Source of the DNA: Gelidibacter japonicus
GTDB taxonomy: Bacteria > Bacteroidota > Bacteroidia > Flavobacteriales > Flavobacteriaceae
DNA: 64,000 bases
Reading direction: 5' to 3'
Assembly (NCBI RefSeq): GCF_010725055.1
Contig: NZ_BJKB01000003.1
Coordinates: forward strand, 248,001-312,000
The position numbers and the translations under genes were made by a program. Shown piece after piece: positions 11,696 through 20,079 of the stretch; position 1 is the first letter of the stretch; each line of letters opens with the position of its first letter. Under the pieces are notes generated by a model. That model was not told where the DNA came from. It did no database searches and was given only the letters and a program-made list of their open reading frames with translations.

Positions 11696-12511
11696 ATGGA
11701 AAGATTACCTAAAGTTGCAATACCTGCAATTATTGCAGCAATTGTTTTAATTATTATACTCGCCAAATCAGCAGTGACAGTTGAGTCCGGACAAGCAGGC
11801 GTTCTATATAAAACCTTTGGAGGAGGTGTGGTTACGGATGAACCAGCACTCGGTGAAGGCTTTCACTTGATAGCACCTTGGAACAGGGTATTTATCTATG
11901 AAGTGAGACAGCAAGAAATTTTAGATAAAATGAGTGTATTATCGTCAAATGGATTGGACATTAAATTAGAAGCTTCAGTATGGTTCCAACCAGCTTACGA
12001 GAATCTTGGCAAATTGCACCAAGAAAAAGGTGAGCAGTACAAAGAACGTATCTTGCTCCCAGCCATTCGTTCCGCTGCCAGAAGTGTTGTAGGTCGGTAT
12101 ACTCCAGAGCAATTATACTCTAGTAAACGCGATGCTATCCAGCAGGAGATTTTTGAAGAGACCCAGAAGTTTGTGAAAGATCAATACATTCAGTTGAATG
12201 AGGTTTTGGTTCGTGATGTCACTTTACCGGCAACTATTAAAGATGCGATAGAGCGAAAATTGAGACAGGAACAAGAATCCTTGGAGTATGAGTTTAGATT
12301 GGTAACCGCCTCCAAAGAAGCCGAAAAGGTTATTATTGAAGCCCAAGGTAAAGCAGATGCCAACCGAATCTTGAGTGCCTCCTTGACAGATAAAATTCTT
12401 CAGGATAAAGGTATTGAAGCTACGGTTAAACTTTCTGAATCCAGTAACAGTAAGGTTATTGTCATTGGATCGGGAGATTCTGGATTGCCTATTATTTTAG
12501 GAAACCAGTAA
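11696..12511 (+). CDS. Prohibitin/SPFH-domain membrane protein
   Basis: A 271-residue protein with one N-terminal membrane helix (about 8-25, IPAIIAAIVLIIILAKS) followed by an SPFH/Band 7 domain (VESGQAGVLYKTFGG...GEGFHLIAPWNRVFIYEVR) and a coiled-coil segment (RQEQESLEYEFRLVTASKEAEKVIIEAQ). Family members form large ring scaffolds on membranes and often modulate proteases. A weak TTGA...TCAA hairpin and T-run follow the stop, before the his leader. Confidence 0.9.
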   Translation: MERLPKVAIPAIIAAIVLIIILAKSAVTVESGQAGVLYKTFGGGVVTDEPALGEGFHLIAPWNRVFIYEVRQQEILDKMSVLSSNGLDIKLEASVWFQPAYENLGKLHQEKGEQYKERILLPAIRSAARSVVGRYTPEQLYSSKRDAIQQEIFEETQKFVKDQYIQLNEVLVRDVTLPATIKDAIERKLRQEQESLEYEFRLVTASKEAEKVIIEAQGKADANRILSASLTDKILQDKGIEATVKLSESSNSKVIVIGSGDSGLPIILGNQ

Positions 12512-12607
12512 TAATTTATACCTGTTGAAAATTTTATCAATATTTTTTTACGAAATATTAGGATGGTAAGTTATAATTTCAAATATTTGTAGAATACAAC
12601 AAAGAAC

Positions 12608-12664
12608 ATGAATTTTATTCAATCACATCATCACCATCATCATATTTGCACTCAAGCGAACTGA
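12608..12664 (+). CDS. hisL: Histidine leader peptide (18 aa, six His codons in a row)
   Basis: A short open frame encoding MNFIQSHHHHHHICTQAN. Six consecutive His codons (12626-12643: CAT CAT CAC CAT CAT CAT) lie mid-peptide, 154 bases upstream of hisG. This is the hallmark of a histidine-sensing transcription attenuator: low charged tRNA-His stalls the ribosome within the His run. No Shine-Dalgarno is seen, as usual for this phylum. The peptide probably has no other job. The symbol is by analogy with enteric hisL; the sequence is not homologous in any way I can show. Confidence 0.9.
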   Translation: MNFIQSHHHHHHICTQAN

Positions 12665-12724
12665 AGATGTATTGAATAAAATCAACATATTTAAAACCGT
12701 TTGAGTGAATCAAGCGGTTTTTTT
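12612..12724 (+). promoter_or_regulatory. his operon transcription attenuator (pause stem, antiterminator, terminator)
   Basis: Three RNA helices can be read. Stem A pairs 12612-12629 with 12666-12682 (17 pairs with one bulged C), enclosing the His codons. The antiterminator pairs CACTCAAGCG (12649-12658) with CGTTTGAGTG (12698-12707), ten pairs with one G-U. The terminator pairs 12693-12704 with 12710-12721. Antiterminator and terminator share 12698-12704 and exclude each other. A ribosome stalled on His codons opens stem A and leaves 12649-12658 free; one that reaches the stop at 12662 covers it and lets the terminator form. A weak candidate promoter (AAATATTTG, about 12581) lies upstream. 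Confidence 0.85.
12693..12724 (+). terminator. Attenuator terminator of the his operon
   Basis: A twelve-pair stem, AAAACCGTTTGA with TCAAGCGGTTTT (one T-G wobble), five-base loop GTGAA, followed by seven T residues (12718-12724). It lies between leader peptide and hisG, so read-through is needed for operon expression. Confidence 0.9.
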
Positions 12725-12817
12725 ATTCCTTCCAATTTAGGAATCTATCTCCCAAAAGATTTGCTCAAACATTAGTTAAGTTTAATTAAAAAGATACCCA
12801 CTTTCGTGGGGACTAAG

Positions 12818-13675
12818 ATGAGTAAATTAAGAATAGCAGTTCAAAAAGCGGGTCGTTTACATGACGATTCCATGAAAATCCTTAACGATGTAGGGATTTC
12901 AATAGACAACGGTAAAGATCAACTCAAAGCCTCTGCCAAAAATTTCCCTTTAGAAGTGTTTTATCTCCGTAATGGGGATATTCCTCAGTATCTTCGAGAT
13001 GGTGTTGTGGATGCGGCCATCATAGGAGAAAACATTTTGATTGAAAAGGGTACCGACATCCCTGTCATTGAAAAACTGGGATTTTCAACCTGCAAGGTGT
13101 CTATTGCCGTACCAAAATCCTTTAAATATAAAGGAATCAATGATCTGGATGGGAAGCGCATTGCCACCTCTTATCCCAACACCGTCCAAAAATTTCTGAA
13201 GATAAACAATATTAATGCGCAACTGCACATCATCAATGGTTCCGTGGAAATCGCACCCAATATAGGACTTGCAGATGCCATTGTAGACATCGTTTCAAGC
13301 GGGAGCACCTTATTTAAAAACAACCTGAAGGAAGTTGAAGTGTTGTTAAAATCTGAAGCGGTATTGGTGGCCTCTCCAATGATTTCGTCTGAAAATGAGG
13401 ACGTTTTAAAACGTTTGCAATTTCGGATTAAATCCGTTCTAAAAGGCCGACAGTCTAAATATGTGCTTTTAAATGCACCGAATGACAAACTTGAAAAAAT
13501 CATCCGGGTTCTTCCCGGAATGCGAAGTCCCACCGTTTTGCCATTGGCACAAGAGGGCTGGAGCTCCATACATTCCGTAATCAATAAAAATGATTTTTGG
13601 GAAGTCATTGACGAACTGAAGGCCAACGGCGCCGAAGGAATTTTAGTCTGTCCGATTGAAAACATGGTGATTTAG
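12818..13675 (+). CDS. hisG: ATP phosphoribosyltransferase HisG (long form)
   Basis: A 285-residue enzyme of the first histidine step, joining ATP and PRPP. The N-terminal periplasmic-binding-like catalytic domains start with SKLRIAVQKAGRLHDDSMKIL; the PRPP-binding segment is IVDIVSSGSTLF; the last ~70 residues form the ACT-like regulatory domain of the long, feedback-inhibited form that needs no HisZ. ATG 12818 is chosen over GTG 12806, which lies in a CCCAC-TTTC-GTGGG hairpin. First gene after the attenuator. Confidence 0.96.
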   Translation: MSKLRIAVQKAGRLHDDSMKILNDVGISIDNGKDQLKASAKNFPLEVFYLRNGDIPQYLRDGVVDAAIIGENILIEKGTDIPVIEKLGFSTCKVSIAVPKSFKYKGINDLDGKRIATSYPNTVQKFLKINNINAQLHIINGSVEIAPNIGLADAIVDIVSSGSTLFKNNLKEVEVLLKSEAVLVASPMISSENEDVLKRLQFRIKSVLKGRQSKYVLLNAPNDKLEKIIRVLPGMRSPTVLPLAQEGWSSIHSVINKNDFWEVIDELKANGAEGILVCPIENMVI

Positions 13676-13720: not shown

Positions 13721-15007
13721 ATGCAAATCATAAAAAATCCGAATAGAGCATCTTGGTCAGAACTCGTTAAAAGGCCAACCCAATCTGTTGACAGCATTGA
13801 GGCCACCGTGGTCCAGATCTTTAAAGATGTCAAAAGAAACGGCAATTTGGCCATTCAAAAATATACGGCACTCTTTGATGGCATAGATGCCGAGGTGTCA
13901 GAAGTTTCAGAAGCTGAAATAAGTGCTGCCTCCCAGCAGGTTCCTAAGGAATTAAAAGAGGCCATTAAAAACGCAAAACAGAACATTGAAACATTTCATA
14001 AGGCTCAAGAAATTGATAAGATTGAAGTTCAGACCATGCCAGGGGTCCAATGTTGGCAAGAAAAACGACCTATTGAAAAAATAGGACTGTATATTCCTGG
14101 TGGAACAGCGCCTTTATTCTCGACGGTGCTGATGCTTGCTGCTCCAGCACAAATAGCAGGATGTAAAGAGATGATTCTCTGCACGCCACCAAACAGACAA
14201 GGTGTGATTGCCAATGAAATTTTATATGCAGCACAATTATGCGGTGTGACCAAAATTTATAAGGTTGGTGGCATTCAGGCTATCGCAGCCATGACCTTCG
14301 GTACGGAAACTATTTCGCAAGTTTATAAAATTTTCGGACCAGGAAATCAATTTGTCACCGTGGCTAAGCAATTGGCAACCAAATACGGTGTGGCCATTGA
14401 TATGCCAGCTGGTCCGAGCGAACTGCTGGTTTATGCCGATGACAGTGCAAATGCTGCTTATGTCGCCTCCGATCTTTTGAGTCAAGCCGAGCATGGTACT
14501 GATAGCCAAGTCGTGTTGGTATCCAACTCAGATTCATTTATTGCAAAAGTGAAGGCTGAAATTGTAGAACAAATTGCAGTTTTGCCAAGAAAAACCATCG
14601 CTGAAAAAGCCATTGAAAATTCGAAATTGATTTTTATTGCAGATGATCAAGCGGCGCTCGACTTTATAAATTCATACGGCCCGGAACACTTTATTGTATG
14701 CGCTAAAAATGAATCATTTTTTGTCCAGGGAATTACCAATGCGGGATCAGTATTCATCGGCGATTATACGCCCGAAAGCGCGGGAGATTATGCTTCTGGC
14801 ACCAATCACACATTGCCCACCAACGGATTTAGCAAGGCCTATTCGGGAGTGAATTTGGATAGCTTTCTAAAAAGTATAACTTTCCAGAAAATCACAAAAC
14901 AAGGTTTATTAAATATTGGGGAAACCATTGAACTGATGGCCGCAGCCGAAGGTTTGCAGGCCCATAAGAACGCAGTATCCATCCGATTAAAAGATATCAA
15001 GTCATGA
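13721..15007 (+). CDS. hisD: Histidinol dehydrogenase HisD
   Basis: A 428-residue zinc enzyme for the last two steps, histidinol to histidine with two NAD reductions. Family motifs include IGLYIPGGTAPLFSTVLML, IFGPGNQFVTVAKQ, DMPAGPSELLV with nearby QAEHG (zinc region), and GDYASGTNHTLPT. Length is standard. The stop overlaps the hisC start by four bases (ATGA), indicating translational coupling. Confidence 0.97.
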   Translation: MQIIKNPNRASWSELVKRPTQSVDSIEATVVQIFKDVKRNGNLAIQKYTALFDGIDAEVSEVSEAEISAASQQVPKELKEAIKNAKQNIETFHKAQEIDKIEVQTMPGVQCWQEKRPIEKIGLYIPGGTAPLFSTVLMLAAPAQIAGCKEMILCTPPNRQGVIANEILYAAQLCGVTKIYKVGGIQAIAAMTFGTETISQVYKIFGPGNQFVTVAKQLATKYGVAIDMPAGPSELLVYADDSANAAYVASDLLSQAEHGTDSQVVLVSNSDSFIAKVKAEIVEQIAVLPRKTIAEKAIENSKLIFIADDQAALDFINSYGPEHFIVCAKNESFFVQGITNAGSVFIGDYTPESAGDYASGTNHTLPTNGFSKAYSGVNLDSFLKSITFQKITKQGLLNIGETIELMAAAEGLQAHKNAVSIRLKDIKS

Positions 15008-16041
15008 CAATTCAAAATCTTATAAGGCCCTCCATAAAGGCTTTGAAGCCTTACTCTTCAGCACGTGATGAGTTTAAGGGCAATACCGACAATTTAACTT
15101 TTCTTGATGCAAATGAAAACCCTTATGCCAATGGGGTCAATCGTTATCCTGACCCGCAGCAGGGCAAACTTAAAGCTTTGATTTCCCATATAAAAAAAGT
15201 GCCAACTGAAAGCATTCTCTTGGGGAATGGCAGTGATGAAGTGTTGGACTTGCTCATTAGAATGTTCTGTGAGCCTAATAAAGACAATATCCTTATTCTT
15301 CCACCAACCTATGGCATGTATGAGGTGTTAGCCAATGTCAATGCGGTTGAAACGATTAAAATCAATCTCTCTGAGGAAACATTCCAGCCAAAAATAGATG
15401 CTATTTTATCAGAAGCGAACGCGAACAGCAAAATTCTATTCTTATGTTCGCCCAACAATCCATCAGGGAATAGCTTTGAAACGTCGTCGGTAGAGTTCTT
15501 ATTGAAAAACTTCAAGGGCATTGTGGTTATGGATGAAGCTTATATTGATTTTTCAAAAGGAGAAAGCTGGCTTTCGAGATTGAAGGAATTCCCTAATCTT
15601 GTGGTGACCCAAACCTTATCCAAAGCATTTGGAATGGCAGGGATTCGTTTGGGAATGTGTTTCGCATCCGAAGAAATCATAGCGACATTAAACAAAATAA
15701 AACCCCCTTACAATATTAATGAACTTACCCAAGCCAAGGCCATGGAAGGACTTAGTGAAATGACATTAATAAAATCACAAATAGCCTGTCTTATAGAGCA
15801 AAGAGATGTTTTAGTTAAAGCATTGAAAGAGGTCGATTTTATAGAGAAAGTATATCCATCTGAAGCAAACTTTGTGATGGTCAGAGTGGATGATGCCAAC
15901 AAACGCTACCAACAATTAATTGAAAATGGCATTGTCATTCGCAATAGAACAACACAGCCATTATGCGAAAATTGTTTGCGACTTACGGTTGGGACAGAGG
16001 AGGAAAATAAAAAACTTATTGAAAAATTGAAAAATTTATAA
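15004..16041 (+). CDS. hisC: Histidinol-phosphate aminotransferase HisC
   Basis: A 345-residue class I/II PLP aminotransferase converting imidazole-acetol phosphate to histidinol phosphate. Seen are LDANENPYANG at the N-terminus, SPNNPSG, DEAYIDF, and the PLP Lys K207 in TLSKAFGMAGIRLG. It overlaps hisD by four bases and is followed 12 bases later by hisB. Confidence 0.96.
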   Translation: MTIQNLIRPSIKALKPYSSARDEFKGNTDNLTFLDANENPYANGVNRYPDPQQGKLKALISHIKKVPTESILLGNGSDEVLDLLIRMFCEPNKDNILILPPTYGMYEVLANVNAVETIKINLSEETFQPKIDAILSEANANSKILFLCSPNNPSGNSFETSSVEFLLKNFKGIVVMDEAYIDFSKGESWLSRLKEFPNLVVTQTLSKAFGMAGIRLGMCFASEEIIATLNKIKPPYNINELTQAKAMEGLSEMTLIKSQIACLIEQRDVLVKALKEVDFIEKVYPSEANFVMVRVDDANKRYQQLIENGIVIRNRTTQPLCENCLRLTVGTEEENKKLIEKLKNL

Positions 16042-16053
16042 AGATTGAATTTA

Positions 16054-17178
16054 ATGAAAAAAGTATTATTTATTGATCGTGACGGCACCATCATTATTGA
16101 ACCAAAAGATTATCAAATAGACAGTTTCGAAAAACTTTTGTTTTATCCTAAAGTGTTTCAATATCTCGGCAAAATTGCAAAAGAATTGGACTATGAAATC
16201 GTAATGGTGACCAACCAAGACGGACTGGGAACAGATTCTTTTCCAGAAGATACGTTTTGGCCGGTTCATAATTTTATGTTAGAAACATTTAAATCGGAGG
16301 GCATTGAATTTAAGGAACAGTTCATCGATCGGACTTTTGAGGAAGATAATGCAGATACGCGTAAACCAAGAACAGGAATGTTGACGCAATATTTCTCTGA
16401 TGCCTACGATTTGGAAAAATCGTTCGTCATTGGGGACCGTTTGACAGATGTTGAACTGGCCAAAAATTTAGGTTCAAAGGCCATTTTTATAAATAACCCC
16501 GCCACTGACTTCATTGATGCAGAACAGGAAGTACTTAAAGATTATATTGCTTTGGAGACCAAAGATTGGGAGGAAGTTTATAGGTTCTTAAAAACAGAAG
16601 ATCGAACCGCGACTTTGGAACGAAACACCAATGAAACTAAAATTGCCATCAACTTAAACCTCGATGGTACCGGCATAAGCAATATTGATACAGGAATTGC
16701 CTTCTTTGATCACATGTTGGATCAAATAGCCCGTCATGGACAATTGGATTTGGATATCAAAGTCATTGGTGATTTGGAGGTGGACGAACACCACACTATT
16801 GAAGACACAGGAATTGCTTTAGGCGAAGTGTTTGCCAAAGCTTTGGGCAATAAATTGGGAGTTGAGCGCTACGGATTTTGCTTGCCAATGGACGATTGTT
16901 TGGCACAGGTCGCCATCGATTTTGGAGGGCGGAATTGGTTGGTATGGGATGCAGAATTTAAGCGAGAGATGATCGGAAAAATGCCAACGGAAATGTTCTT
17001 TCACTTTTTTAAATCGTTCACAGATGGTGCCAGATGCAATTTGAATATCAAAGCAGAAGGCGACAATGAACACCATAAAATTGAGGCTATTTTCAAAGCT
17101 TTTGCCAAATCTATAAAAATGGCCATCAAACGGGATCTGGAAAAAATGATTTTGCCATCAACGAAAGGAGTATTGTAG
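16054..17178 (+). CDS. hisB: Bifunctional histidinol-phosphatase / imidazoleglycerol-phosphate dehydratase HisB
   Basis: A 374-residue fusion. The N-terminal HAD phosphatase has the nucleophile motif FIDRDGT (D8, D10) and [10 protein letters not shown]. The dehydratase domain begins near residue 185 ([14 protein letters not shown]) and carries metal-binding motifs [25 protein letters not shown] and [11 protein letters not shown]. The phosphatase segment before RKPRTG has no cysteines ([13 protein letters not shown]), unlike the zinc-binding Cys/His loop of enteric HisB. ATG 16054 is preferred to the TTG at 16045. Confidence 0.95.
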
Positions 17179-17247
17179 AAATTTCAAATTCCAAATTCCA
17201 TTTTTGACATTTTGGAATTTGCTGTTTGAATTCATAAATCACTTAGA

Positions 17248-17829
17248 ATGAATATTGTAATAATAGACTATGGAGCCGGCAACACCAAAAGTGTTCAGTT
17301 TGCATGCAATCGTTTGGGGTTTGATCCTATTTTGACCAATAGCGCAGAACTTATAAAAGCCGCTGATAAGGTCATATTCCCTGGCGTTGGGCATGCAAGT
17401 AATGCTATGAAAATACTTCAAGAGTCGGGATTGGATGTGTTAATTCCAACACTCAAACAGCCGTTATTGGGCATTTGTTTAGGAATGCAGTTATTGTGTC
17501 ATACCACAGAGGAAGGTACAACCAATGGCTTAGGTGTTTTTGATGTAGATGTGAAACGGTTTTCCGATGCAGTAAAAGTTCCTCAAATGGGATGGAATAC
17601 CATTTCAAATTTGAAAACAAATTTATTTACCGGCCTAAAAAACGATGCCTATATGTATCTTGTGCACAGTTATTATGCAGAATTGTGTGAAGATACCATA
17701 GCTCAAACAAATTATGGCGTAACTTATAGTTCTGCATTAAAAAAAGACAATTTTTACGGCGTTCAATTTCATCCTGAAAAAAGCAGTTGGGAAGGTGAGA
17801 CGGTGTTGAGTAATTTTCTCAATTTCTGA
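17248..17829 (+). CDS. hisH: Imidazole glycerol phosphate synthase glutaminase HisH
   Basis: A 193-residue class I glutamine amidotransferase that feeds ammonia to HisF. The nucleophile is C77 in LGICLGMQLL; the His/Glu pair is in GVQFHPEKSSWEG. MNIVIIDYGAGNTKS is the usual N-terminus. The partner HisF is two genes downstream. A tandem 7-base repeat separates it from hisA. Confidence 0.97.
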   Translation: MNIVIIDYGAGNTKSVQFACNRLGFDPILTNSAELIKAADKVIFPGVGHASNAMKILQESGLDVLIPTLKQPLLGICLGMQLLCHTTEEGTTNGLGVFDVDVKRFSDAVKVPQMGWNTISNLKTNLFTGLKNDAYMYLVHSYYAELCEDTIAQTNYGVTYSSALKKDNFYGVQFHPEKSSWEGETVLSNFLNF

Positions 17830-17833
17830 AATT

Positions 17834-17861
17834 GTAAATCGTAAATCATAAATCGTAAATC
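17834..17861 (+). repeat. Four tandem 7-bp units (GTAAATC) between hisH and hisA
   Basis: Units GTAAATC, GTAAATC, ATAAATC, GTAAATC run head to tail, ending three bases before the hisA ATG at 17865. They occupy most of the 35-base gap inside the operon. No protein is encoded; they may be slippage products of the AT-rich intergenic phrases found elsewhere in the window. Confidence 0.85.
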
Positions 17862-17864
17862 AAG

Positions 17865-18599
17865 ATGAGGATTATTCCAGCAATAGATATAATAGACGGC
17901 AAATGTGTCCGACTGACAAAAGGTGATTATAACACTAAAAAAATATATAATGAAAATCCGTTGGAAGTTGCCAAGCAATTTGAAGCTTCAGGGATTGAAT
18001 ATTTGCATTTAGTCGATTTGGACGGAGCCAAAGCCAAGCAAATCGTTAATTATAAGGTATTGGAACAGATTGCTTCAAAAACAAATTTGAAGATTGATTT
18101 TGGTGGTGGACTCAAATCGGATAAGGATCTGCATATTGCCTTTAATTCTGGTGCGAAACAAATTACTGGTGGAAGTATTGCCGTCAACGATCACAAAACT
18201 TTTGAGTCCTGGTTGGAAAAGTATGGCTCAACCAAAATTATTCTGGGAGCCGATTGCAACAATCGTAAGATTGCCATAAGTGGCTGGCAGGAGCAAAGCA
18301 GTTTGGAAGTCATTCCTTTTATAAAAAATTACCAGAGACAAAAAGTGCAATATGTCATTTGTACAGATATTTCCAAGGATGGCATGCTAGAAGGACCATC
18401 TTTTGATTTGTATAGAGAAATTATTGAAGAGTGTTCAAACAATAGTTCAGATCAATCCATAAAACTGATTGCTTCGGGTGGAATTTCACATATTGATGAG
18501 CTTTCAAAGTTAAGAGATTTAGGATGTGAAGGCGTCATTATTGGAAAGGCCATTTATGAGAACAGAATCAGTTTACAAGAGTTGGAACAATTTTATTAG
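17865..18599 (+). CDS. hisA: ProFAR isomerase HisA
   Basis: A 244-residue TIM barrel that isomerises the aminoaldose ProFAR to the aminoketose. Paired phosphate-binding motifs and catalytic acids are visible: D8 in [13 protein letters not shown], a mid-barrel Asp in [12 protein letters not shown], with [13 protein letters not shown] near the end. It resembles HisF in sequence, as expected from their shared origin. Confidence 0.96.
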
Positions 18600-18627
18600 T
18601 GAAACCTCGACTTACTCAAAAAATATT

Positions 18628-19383
18628 ATGCTTGCAAAACGAATAATTCCATGTTTGGACATTAAAAATGGCCGTACCGTTAAAGGTGTTAATTTTGTCA
18701 ACCTCATTGATGCAGGAGATCCCGTTGTGTTGGCAAAGCAATACGCTGAAAAGGGCGCGGACGAACTGGTATTTCTCGATATTTCCGCAACTTTGGAAGG
18801 ACGGAAAACCACTTTGGAAATGGTTTTGAAGGTCGCCGAACAAGTCAACATCCCCTTTACTGTAGGTGGGGGTATTTCCTCTATTGAAGACGTCGATTTG
18901 CTTTTAAAATCGGGCGCTGATAAAGTTTCCATCAATTCATCTGCCATAAAACGTCCAGAACTTATCAATGAACTCTCCGATAAATTTGGAAGCCAGTGTG
19001 TGGTCGTTGCCATAGACGCCAAGCAAATTGACGGTCAATGGAAAGTGCATCTGGCAGGAGGAAGTATCCCTACCAAGTTGGACCTTTTTGAATGGGCAAA
19101 AGAAGTTGAAAATCGTGGTGCTGGTGAGATTTTGTTCACCTCTATGGATCATGATGGTACCAAGGATGGTTTTGCCAATGGGGCTTTGTCAAAATTATCA
19201 ACCACATTGAATATTCCAATTATTGCCTCTGGCGGTGCTGGAACCATTCAGCATTTTGTGGATACCTTTCAAATTGGGAAATCAGATGCCGCGCTTGCCG
19301 CCAGTGTATTCCATTTTGGTGAAATTGAAATCAAGGATTTGAAAAATGCCTTAAAAGAAAATAATATAGAAGTACGAATTTAA
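18628..19383 (+). CDS. hisF: Imidazole glycerol phosphate synthase cyclase HisF
   Basis: A 251-residue TIM barrel that closes the imidazole ring using ammonia from HisH. Catalytic Asp residues are in [13 protein letters not shown] (D11) and VVVAIDAKQ. Motifs [13 protein letters not shown] and [12 protein letters not shown] mark the phosphate sites. The frame is open upstream to 18526 within hisA, but the ATG at 18628 gives the conserved [11 protein letters not shown] start, 28 bases after hisA. Confidence 0.96.
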
Positions 19384-19482
19384 AAATTGACCACCAATCG
19401 TCCTTTCGACAGAAAGCTGTGTCCATGTGTTTTTTAACGGAATCCACTCAAAACTTATAATTGTGGCAAAAACAATACAACA

Positions 19483-20079
19483 ATGAACTTAAAATTCAAT
19501 TCAGAAGATTTAATTCCCGCCATCATCCAAGATGCCATGACTAAAAACGTCCTGATGTTAGGCTATATGAATGAAGAAGCCTTCAAGAAAACCCAAGAAA
19601 CCAAAAAAGTAACCTTTTACAGCAGAAGCAAACAACGCTTATGGACCAAGGGTGAAGAAAGTGGCAATTTCCTGAAATCGGTAAGTATTAAAGTAGATTG
19701 CGATAATGACACGCTATTGATTCAGGCACACCCAGTCGGTCCAACATGCCATAAAGGATCGGATACCTGTTGGGATGAGGAAAATTCGTCCAATTTTGGA
19801 TATATTTCCAAATTGGAGCAGACAATCCTGGAGCGTCGTAACAACTCCAAACCTGAGGATTCCTATGTAGCCTCACTTTTCGCAAAAGGCATCAACAAAC
19901 TGGCTCAAAAGGTAGGCGAGGAGGCGGTGGAGGTGGTCATTGAGGCGAAAGATGATAACGATGACTTGTTTTTAAACGAGAGCGCAGATTTATTATTTCA
20001 TTATTTGATGCTGCTCCAGGCCAAAGGTTTTAAATTAGAGGATGTTGAAACGGTACTCAAGAATAGGGAGAAAAAATAA
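19483..20079 (+). CDS. hisI: Bifunctional HisI: phosphoribosyl-AMP cyclohydrolase / phosphoribosyl-ATP pyrophosphatase
   Basis: A 198-residue fusion for steps two and three of histidine synthesis. The cyclohydrolase half has FYSRSKQRLWTKGEESGN and zinc-binding VDCDND and HPVGPTCH. The pyrophosphatase half (from about residue 110) is helical with GEEAVEVVIEAKD and ESADLLFHYLMLL. Last gene of the operon, separated from hisF by 99 bases with no terminator seen. Confidence 0.96.
   Translation: MNLKFNSEDLIPAIIQDAMTKNVLMLGYMNEEAFKKTQETKKVTFYSRSKQRLWTKGEESGNFLKSVSIKVDCDNDTLLIQAHPVGPTCHKGSDTCWDEENSSNFGYISKLEQTILERRNNSKPEDSYVASLFAKGINKLAQKVGEEAVEVVIEAKDDNDDLFLNESADLLFHYLMLLQAKGFKLEDVETVLKNREKK

Follow-up and report, generated by a model that had tools for sequence, protein, structure and literature searches.

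A predicted histidine attenuator upstream of hisG in Gelidibacter japonicus, with an additional pairing element between terminator and gene in Flavobacteriales

The his leader region

The window, i.e., the whole 64,000-nucleotide stretch of Gelidibacter japonicus DNA that was analysed, contains a complete his operon whose genes all run in the same direction, downstream of a short leader region. Its HisG is 91% identical to the HisG of Gelidibacter algens. The features of the locus are presented in Table 1.

Table 1. Features of the his leader region and operon in the window.
Feature	Position	Strand	Basis and remarks
Promoter -7-like site, AATATTTG	12582-12589	+	One mismatch to TAnnTTTG; 18 nt 5' of leader AUG
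Leader peptide ORF, MNFIQSHHHHHHICTQAN	12608-12664	+	His codons 12626-12643; stop TGA 12662-12664; kept in relatives
P1 5' strand	12612-12629	+	C12624 bulged; folds and own-partner test
Small hairpin at P1 tip, covers part of R2	12645-12660	+	12645-12649/12656-12660; folds
R2, antiterminator 5' strand, within the leader's last codons	12649-12658	+	Folding; own-partner test
P1 3' strand	12666-12682	+	Folds and own-partner test
Intrinsic terminator	12693-12724	+	Arms 12693-12704/12710-12721, loop 12705-12709, T run 12718-12724; covariation in relatives
R3, antiterminator 3' strand, also terminator 5' arm	12698-12707	+	Folding; own-partner test
R5-pairing part of terminator (5' arm, loop, two 3'-arm bases)	12699-12711	+	Complementarity to R5
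R5, GATTTGCTCAAAC	12758-12770	+	13 pairs with 12699-12711, two of them wobbles; 47 nt 5' of hisG AUG
Small hairpin between R5 and hisG, CCCACTTTCGTGGG	12797-12810	+	Sequence and terminator scan
hisG	12818-13675	+	NCBIfam TIGR00070, 184.4 bits against a cut-off of 75.75
hisD, hisC, hisNB, hisH, hisA, hisF, hisIE	13721-20079	+	Each above an NCBIfam cut-off

The original prediction, which described an 18-residue leader with six consecutive His codons, a 17-pair stem around these codons (P1), an antiterminator and a terminator, had the leader and the three structures right, but overlooked R5. P1 is recovered by folding as 12 pairs (12612-12623 with 12671-12682) and 5 pairs (12625-12629 with 12666-12670) on either side of the single bulged C. 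The antiterminator consists of 10 pairs, including one wobble, and forms when positions 12645-12709 are folded alone. The terminator has the expected 12 pairs, yet the seven T that were thought to follow it overlap the 3' end of the stem, and only three lie beyond 12721. Scanning 12450-12850 for terminators yielded two sites, against a mean of 0.1 in shuffles. As for the small hairpin preceding hisG, differing yet pairing versions were found by eye in some congeners and in other genomes with long spacers, the L002 region not being among them.

Four folds were computed as a check, and in no case was any of 200 dinucleotide shuffles as stable, with z = -5.1 for the whole leader, -3.9 for the P1 segment, -3.8 for 12645-12735 and -5.6 for 12645-12709. 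The free fold of the whole leader is P1 plus terminator, and once the terminator's 3' arm (R4) is included in the segment starting at 12645, the terminator is obtained rather than the antiterminator. Given that the presence of R4 makes the terminator win, the antiterminator would have to act before R4 is synthesized, i.e., the switch would be kinetic. Switching during RNA synthesis is usual for ribosome-mediated attenuators.

Leader peptides upstream of hisG

HisG was searched in 59 relatives (41 matched), 196 genomes of the order (128 matched) and 197 genomes of the class (89 matched), and up to 420 nt 5' of hisG were read in 150 loci, together with a named set of 80 regions. In the set of relatives, 40 of the 41 matched genomes were read (30 loci, 10 regions), G051 being split; the order set provided 52 regions from the 128 matched genomes, with many members of two genera omitted, and the other-class set provided 58 regions from 81 same-class genomes outside the order. 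The named set overlaps the others, with at least three repeats (L151/L006, L155/L010 and L183/L013).

A leader was defined as an ORF starting from ATG, with at most 45 codons and at least three His in six codons. By this one rule, a His-rich short ORF precedes hisG in 215 of the 230 regions, against 0/230 on the reverse strand and 6/1150 in shuffles. These comprise 87 of 92 regions in Flavobacteriales, 48 of 58 in other Bacteroidia (where L111, L138 and L144 seem to be weak or wrongly placed matches) and all 80 named regions. Of the five misses within the order, one is L027, where a leader with just two His codons precedes the usual terminator; the others are four genomes sized 0.3-0.63 Mb, which are probably endosymbionts. 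A terminator kept without a His leader, which had been named beforehand as a refuting case, was seen by eye in three of the reduced genomes (L089, L090 and L092; 0.57-0.63 Mb), where a terminator-like hairpin stands 5' of hisG and the leader is gone; it is possible that this hairpin is a relic.

Eight leader regions have no terminator by rule (L015, L034, L128, L133 and L144-L147), of which L015 has one by eye, and L111 and L138 were skipped in the terminator search, their ORFs lying far upstream. In L128, L133 and L144-L147, where His-rich short ORFs thus stand 5' of hisG with the terminator absent by rule, control is possibly exerted at translation instead.

The missing Shine-Dalgarno sequence, which had been considered remarkable, is not so for this phylum: according to the parts of PMC6847099 that concern initiation, Bacteroidetes lack such sequences and initiation is favoured by A at -3, -6, -12 and -13. 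Among 158 distinct leaders, A is found at these positions in 59%, 60%, 59% and 47%, respectively, and Shine-Dalgarno-like words occur in four; in the window's own leader, A occupies -3 and -6. The motif TAnnTTTG, presented as the consensus for the promoter -7 site in the pertinent part of PMC9723704, occurs exactly within 60 nt of the AUG in 58 of the 158 leaders (median distance 18 nt), against 4.3% in shuffles. No exact copy is present upstream of the window's leader AUG.

Comparative tests of P1 and the antiterminator

Pairing tests were applied to 85 order-level regions, 40 other regions and the 80 named regions, with each region's own partner strands compared against permuted ones. For R2 and R3, own partners yielded -13.4 kcal/mol against -11.1 in 79 Flavobacteriales regions, and -12.9 against -10.1 in 40 regions of other Bacteroidia; for P1, the values are -10.7 against -8.9 in Flavobacteriales and -11.0 against -9.7 in the others. 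In all four comparisons, none of 5000 permutations reached the observed value. Since the arms are highly divergent between groups, the better fit of own R2/R3 partners represents matched change. Both the conserved His codons and the compensatory pairs that were to be expected upstream of hisG in relatives are found.

The mutual exclusion of antiterminator and terminator also recurs, since relatives present the same anatomy with co-varying partners. As predicted, R2 lies just 5' of the stop codon, where it is placed for masking by a ribosome at the stop, and its position relative to the stop is similar in relatives, in a search confined to -33 to +9 of the stop. Regions L009 and L012 have a stop codon within R2 itself, which cuts the peptide to 15 residues; this R2 still pairs, via a wobble, with -10.7 and -10.4 kcal/mol. 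These two regions offer a natural experiment on the distance that the ribosome has to travel.

An additional pairing element before hisG

R5 is complementary to a part of the terminator that includes its loop. Pairing of R3 with R5 at -12 kcal/mol or better is obtained in 117 of 165 Flavobacteriales regions, while 48 fall short. By set, it is obtained in 64/85 order-level and 53/80 named regions, against 50/4250 and 29/4000 in shuffles, and in 1/85 and 0/80 when R3 is reversed. Own partners yielded -13.1 kcal/mol against -9.3 for permuted ones (83 regions), and -14.0 against -10.4 (78 named regions), with 0/5000 permutations in each case. Outside the order the pairing is weak: among 40 regions of other Bacteroidia, own partners yielded -5.3 against -4.5, a difference reached by 53 of 5000 permutations, and -12 is obtained in five. 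Regions short of -12 include L025, L026, L038, L039 and L049, where the hisG AUG comes soon after the terminator. R5 is absent from L041, L198 and L199, where the terminator is instead followed by a second GC hairpin.

For the R5 alignment, the 165 regions were reduced to 138 by length and identity, to 114 by length (at which step the window's genus was lost) and to 96 by hand. The rows removed by hand were L025, L026, L031, L035, L038, L039, L042, L046, L047, L053, L057, L083, L085, L086, L159, L198, L199 and L203; most of these 18 have no R5, while L031, L035 and L159 pair well but align poorly. In the 96 rows, 89.9% of the 1223 R3:R5 cells pair, a value that overstates the frequency of R5 because of this removal; the counts at -12 kcal/mol given above are free of it.

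Covariation between R3 and R5 in the 96 rows amounts to 0.350; shuffles give 0.193, and sliding the strands gives no more than 0.087. The terminator itself presents 0.184. For the five pairs between the loop and R5, which are free of the terminator's constraint, covariation is 0.553 (shuffles 0.197) and double-change cells number 93 (shuffles 28), although two of the five measures applied to these pairs are barely above shuffles (reached by 436 and 34 of 500). Among 81 taxa on a tree built from 110 HisG proteins, a single loop position switched from one Watson-Crick pair to another at least 12 times. Judging from these comparisons, R5 very likely represents a real RNA pairing.

In the aligned rows, the end of R5 lies a median of 16 nt 5' of the hisG AUG (interquartile 15 to 18, range 11 to 32), and R5 adjoins the A-rich stretch that is tied to initiation in the parts of PMC6847099 cited above. 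In the window's genus this gap is about 40 to 48 nt. Given that R5 lies 3' of the T run, it should not itself decide termination. The chances that R5 instead contributes a further layer of control at the start of hisG translation, either in cis or via released leader RNA, seem to us about even, and the 47-nt gap in the window weakens such a translational role there.

In pseudoknot-free nested folding, stability favours the terminator over R3:R5 in 109 of the 117 regions, and R3:R5 over R2:R3 in 59 of them. This disfavours a plain exchange in cis of R3:R4 for R3:R5, which leaves a pseudoknot between loop and R5, pairing with released leader RNA, or an effect of kinetics.

Proposed mechanism and alternative explanations

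The his operon is likely to be controlled by a ribosome-mediated transcription attenuator to which R5 has been added as a further pairing element. The predicted leader and the P1, R2:R3, R3:R4 and R3:R5 pairings are supported by comparison among genomes, while control by the ribosome and a response to histidine would be expected by analogy with the known class. When charged His-tRNA is scarce, a ribosome would stall at the first His codons, opening P1 and leaving R2 free to capture R3 before R4 is made, and the terminator would not form. With ample histidine, a ribosome that has reached the stop codon would mask R2 and the terminator would form; in an untranslated leader, R2 would be sequestered by P1 and the hairpin at its tip, with the same outcome. 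The opening of P1 by a ribosome on the early His codons, and the masking of R2 by one at the stop, would be expected from what is generally known of ribosome footprints. In Flavobacteriales, R3 and the terminator loop would have a further partner in R5, between the terminator and hisG.

A possible, though not a probable, account of R5 is that it acts in trans, the terminated leader RNA pairing through its loop with R5 on the full-length his mRNA and altering hisG translation. The complementarity covers the terminator loop and both flanks, R3:R5 and the terminator hairpin compete poorly in cis, and the action of rnTrpL on trpDC in Sinorhizobium offers a precedent, as far as it is described in part of PMC7143759. 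The full 13 pairs, however, need an opened hairpin. It is doubtful that the attenuator is a plain one in which R5 pairs, yet is merely a remnant or by-product of terminator evolution. The 48 regions short of -12, several of which have the hisG AUG close to the terminator, and the preference of nested folding for the terminator are consistent with this; a remnant, however, would decay, and the loop bases, which are free in the terminator, covary with R5 and account for the repeated changes on the tree.

There is very little to recommend R3 and R5 as inverted DNA sites for a regulator, with no RNA pairing involved: they are inverted repeats in DNA, and a drifting site would covary too, yet one copy coincides with the terminator, and the R3:R5 cells comprise 131 G-U wobbles against 15 A-C, a strand bias that a DNA site leaves unexplained. 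That the leader is a chance His ORF, with a terminator that is constitutive or read by a T-box, a riboswitch or a protein, is hardly credible despite its missing Shine-Dalgarno sequence, given the leader counts in genomes, reverse strands and shuffles, the A-rich start context with so few Shine-Dalgarno-like words, and the fact that no Rfam family, T-box and known riboswitches included, is found at gathering score in the window or in 20 related regions.

An attenuator with R5 as an added element has implications beyond the window. His leaders of classical form are common 5' of hisG in Bacteroidia, a class that initiates without Shine-Dalgarno pairing, and R5 is a conserved, covarying RNA pairing 3' of the terminator, where textbook attenuation has no part. 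The putative second layer of control is testable by a few point mutants.

Leaders of other amino acid operons

R5 as a general feature of attenuators was rejected, since no such pairing was seen at trpE or pheA. At trpE the values are -2.11 against -2.05 (16 of 18 loci), a control of low power, most of the spacers from terminator to gene being short; at pheA they are -3.81 against -3.97 (values from 14 of 18 loci).

The window's own genome contains further leaders. In L233 (C14), a trp leader, MYTTLNHTWWWNFSKQHS, was recognized by eye before a terminator 5' of trpE, having been missed by the W rule, and in L327 (C13) a Phe leader, MQTANYTYQNWFYFFFSKRDETSYV, stands before a terminator 5' of the prephenate dehydratase gene. 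Phe leaders like the latter occur in most of 23 related loci. Upstream of ilvD, Ile/Leu/Val-rich ORFs were found at only some of 19 loci; in L269, L272 and L276, Ile/Val-rich short ORFs with a terminator lie about 350-380 nt 5' of the ilvD match and constitute candidate ilv leaders.

Comparison with known systems

With the enteric his attenuator (hisL; RF00514), the window's element shares the His-rich leader, the mutually exclusive antiterminator and terminator, and the position 5' of hisG. It differs in having no Shine-Dalgarno sequence and in presenting R5 after the terminator; to our knowledge, enteric hisL has no R5-like strand. Under lax settings, the RF00514 His_leader model matches 12628-12725 with 24 bits, short of the 49-bit gathering score required for membership, and it has no match in the 20 related regions.

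The His leaders of Firmicutes, in the parts of PMC9413887 and PMC2965389 that describe them, likewise have runs of His codons before terminator hairpins, but belong to another phylum, where they stand 5' of his operons (PMC9413887) and of hisS/hisZ (PMC2965389). Bacteroid-trp (RF01692), introduced in part of PMC2864571, is also a candidate cis-regulatory RNA of Bacteroidetes, but a trp element by name, with no match in the window. The rnTrpL RNA of Sinorhizobium meliloti, an attenuator RNA that pairs with another mRNA, provides a model for R5 in trans, with the difference that its target trpDC is a separate transcript, whereas R5 is on the attenuator's own. In the available part of PMC8305728, on the his genes of Bacteroidota, attenuation is named once, in the introduction.

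A further likeness is in Flavobacterium psychrophilum, for which the pertinent part of PMC9723704 (2021) reports strong clues of leader-peptide attenuation at amino acid operons, as well as a structured element 5' of hisG that is also present in other Flavobacteriaceae genera and has no Rfam hits. The original prediction, which knew of no described flavobacterial case, is thus not supported on this point. By description, both are structured elements 5' of hisG that occur in more than one genus of Flavobacteriaceae, while section 19 of that paper gives neither the hisG anatomy nor R5. The leader anatomy given here is absent from the main text of that earlier mention, to the extent covered, and no description of R5 was found in the literature among the matches listed, as far as these sources extend. 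As regards the attenuator, the present description therefore enlarges on an earlier observation, and what is new is R5.
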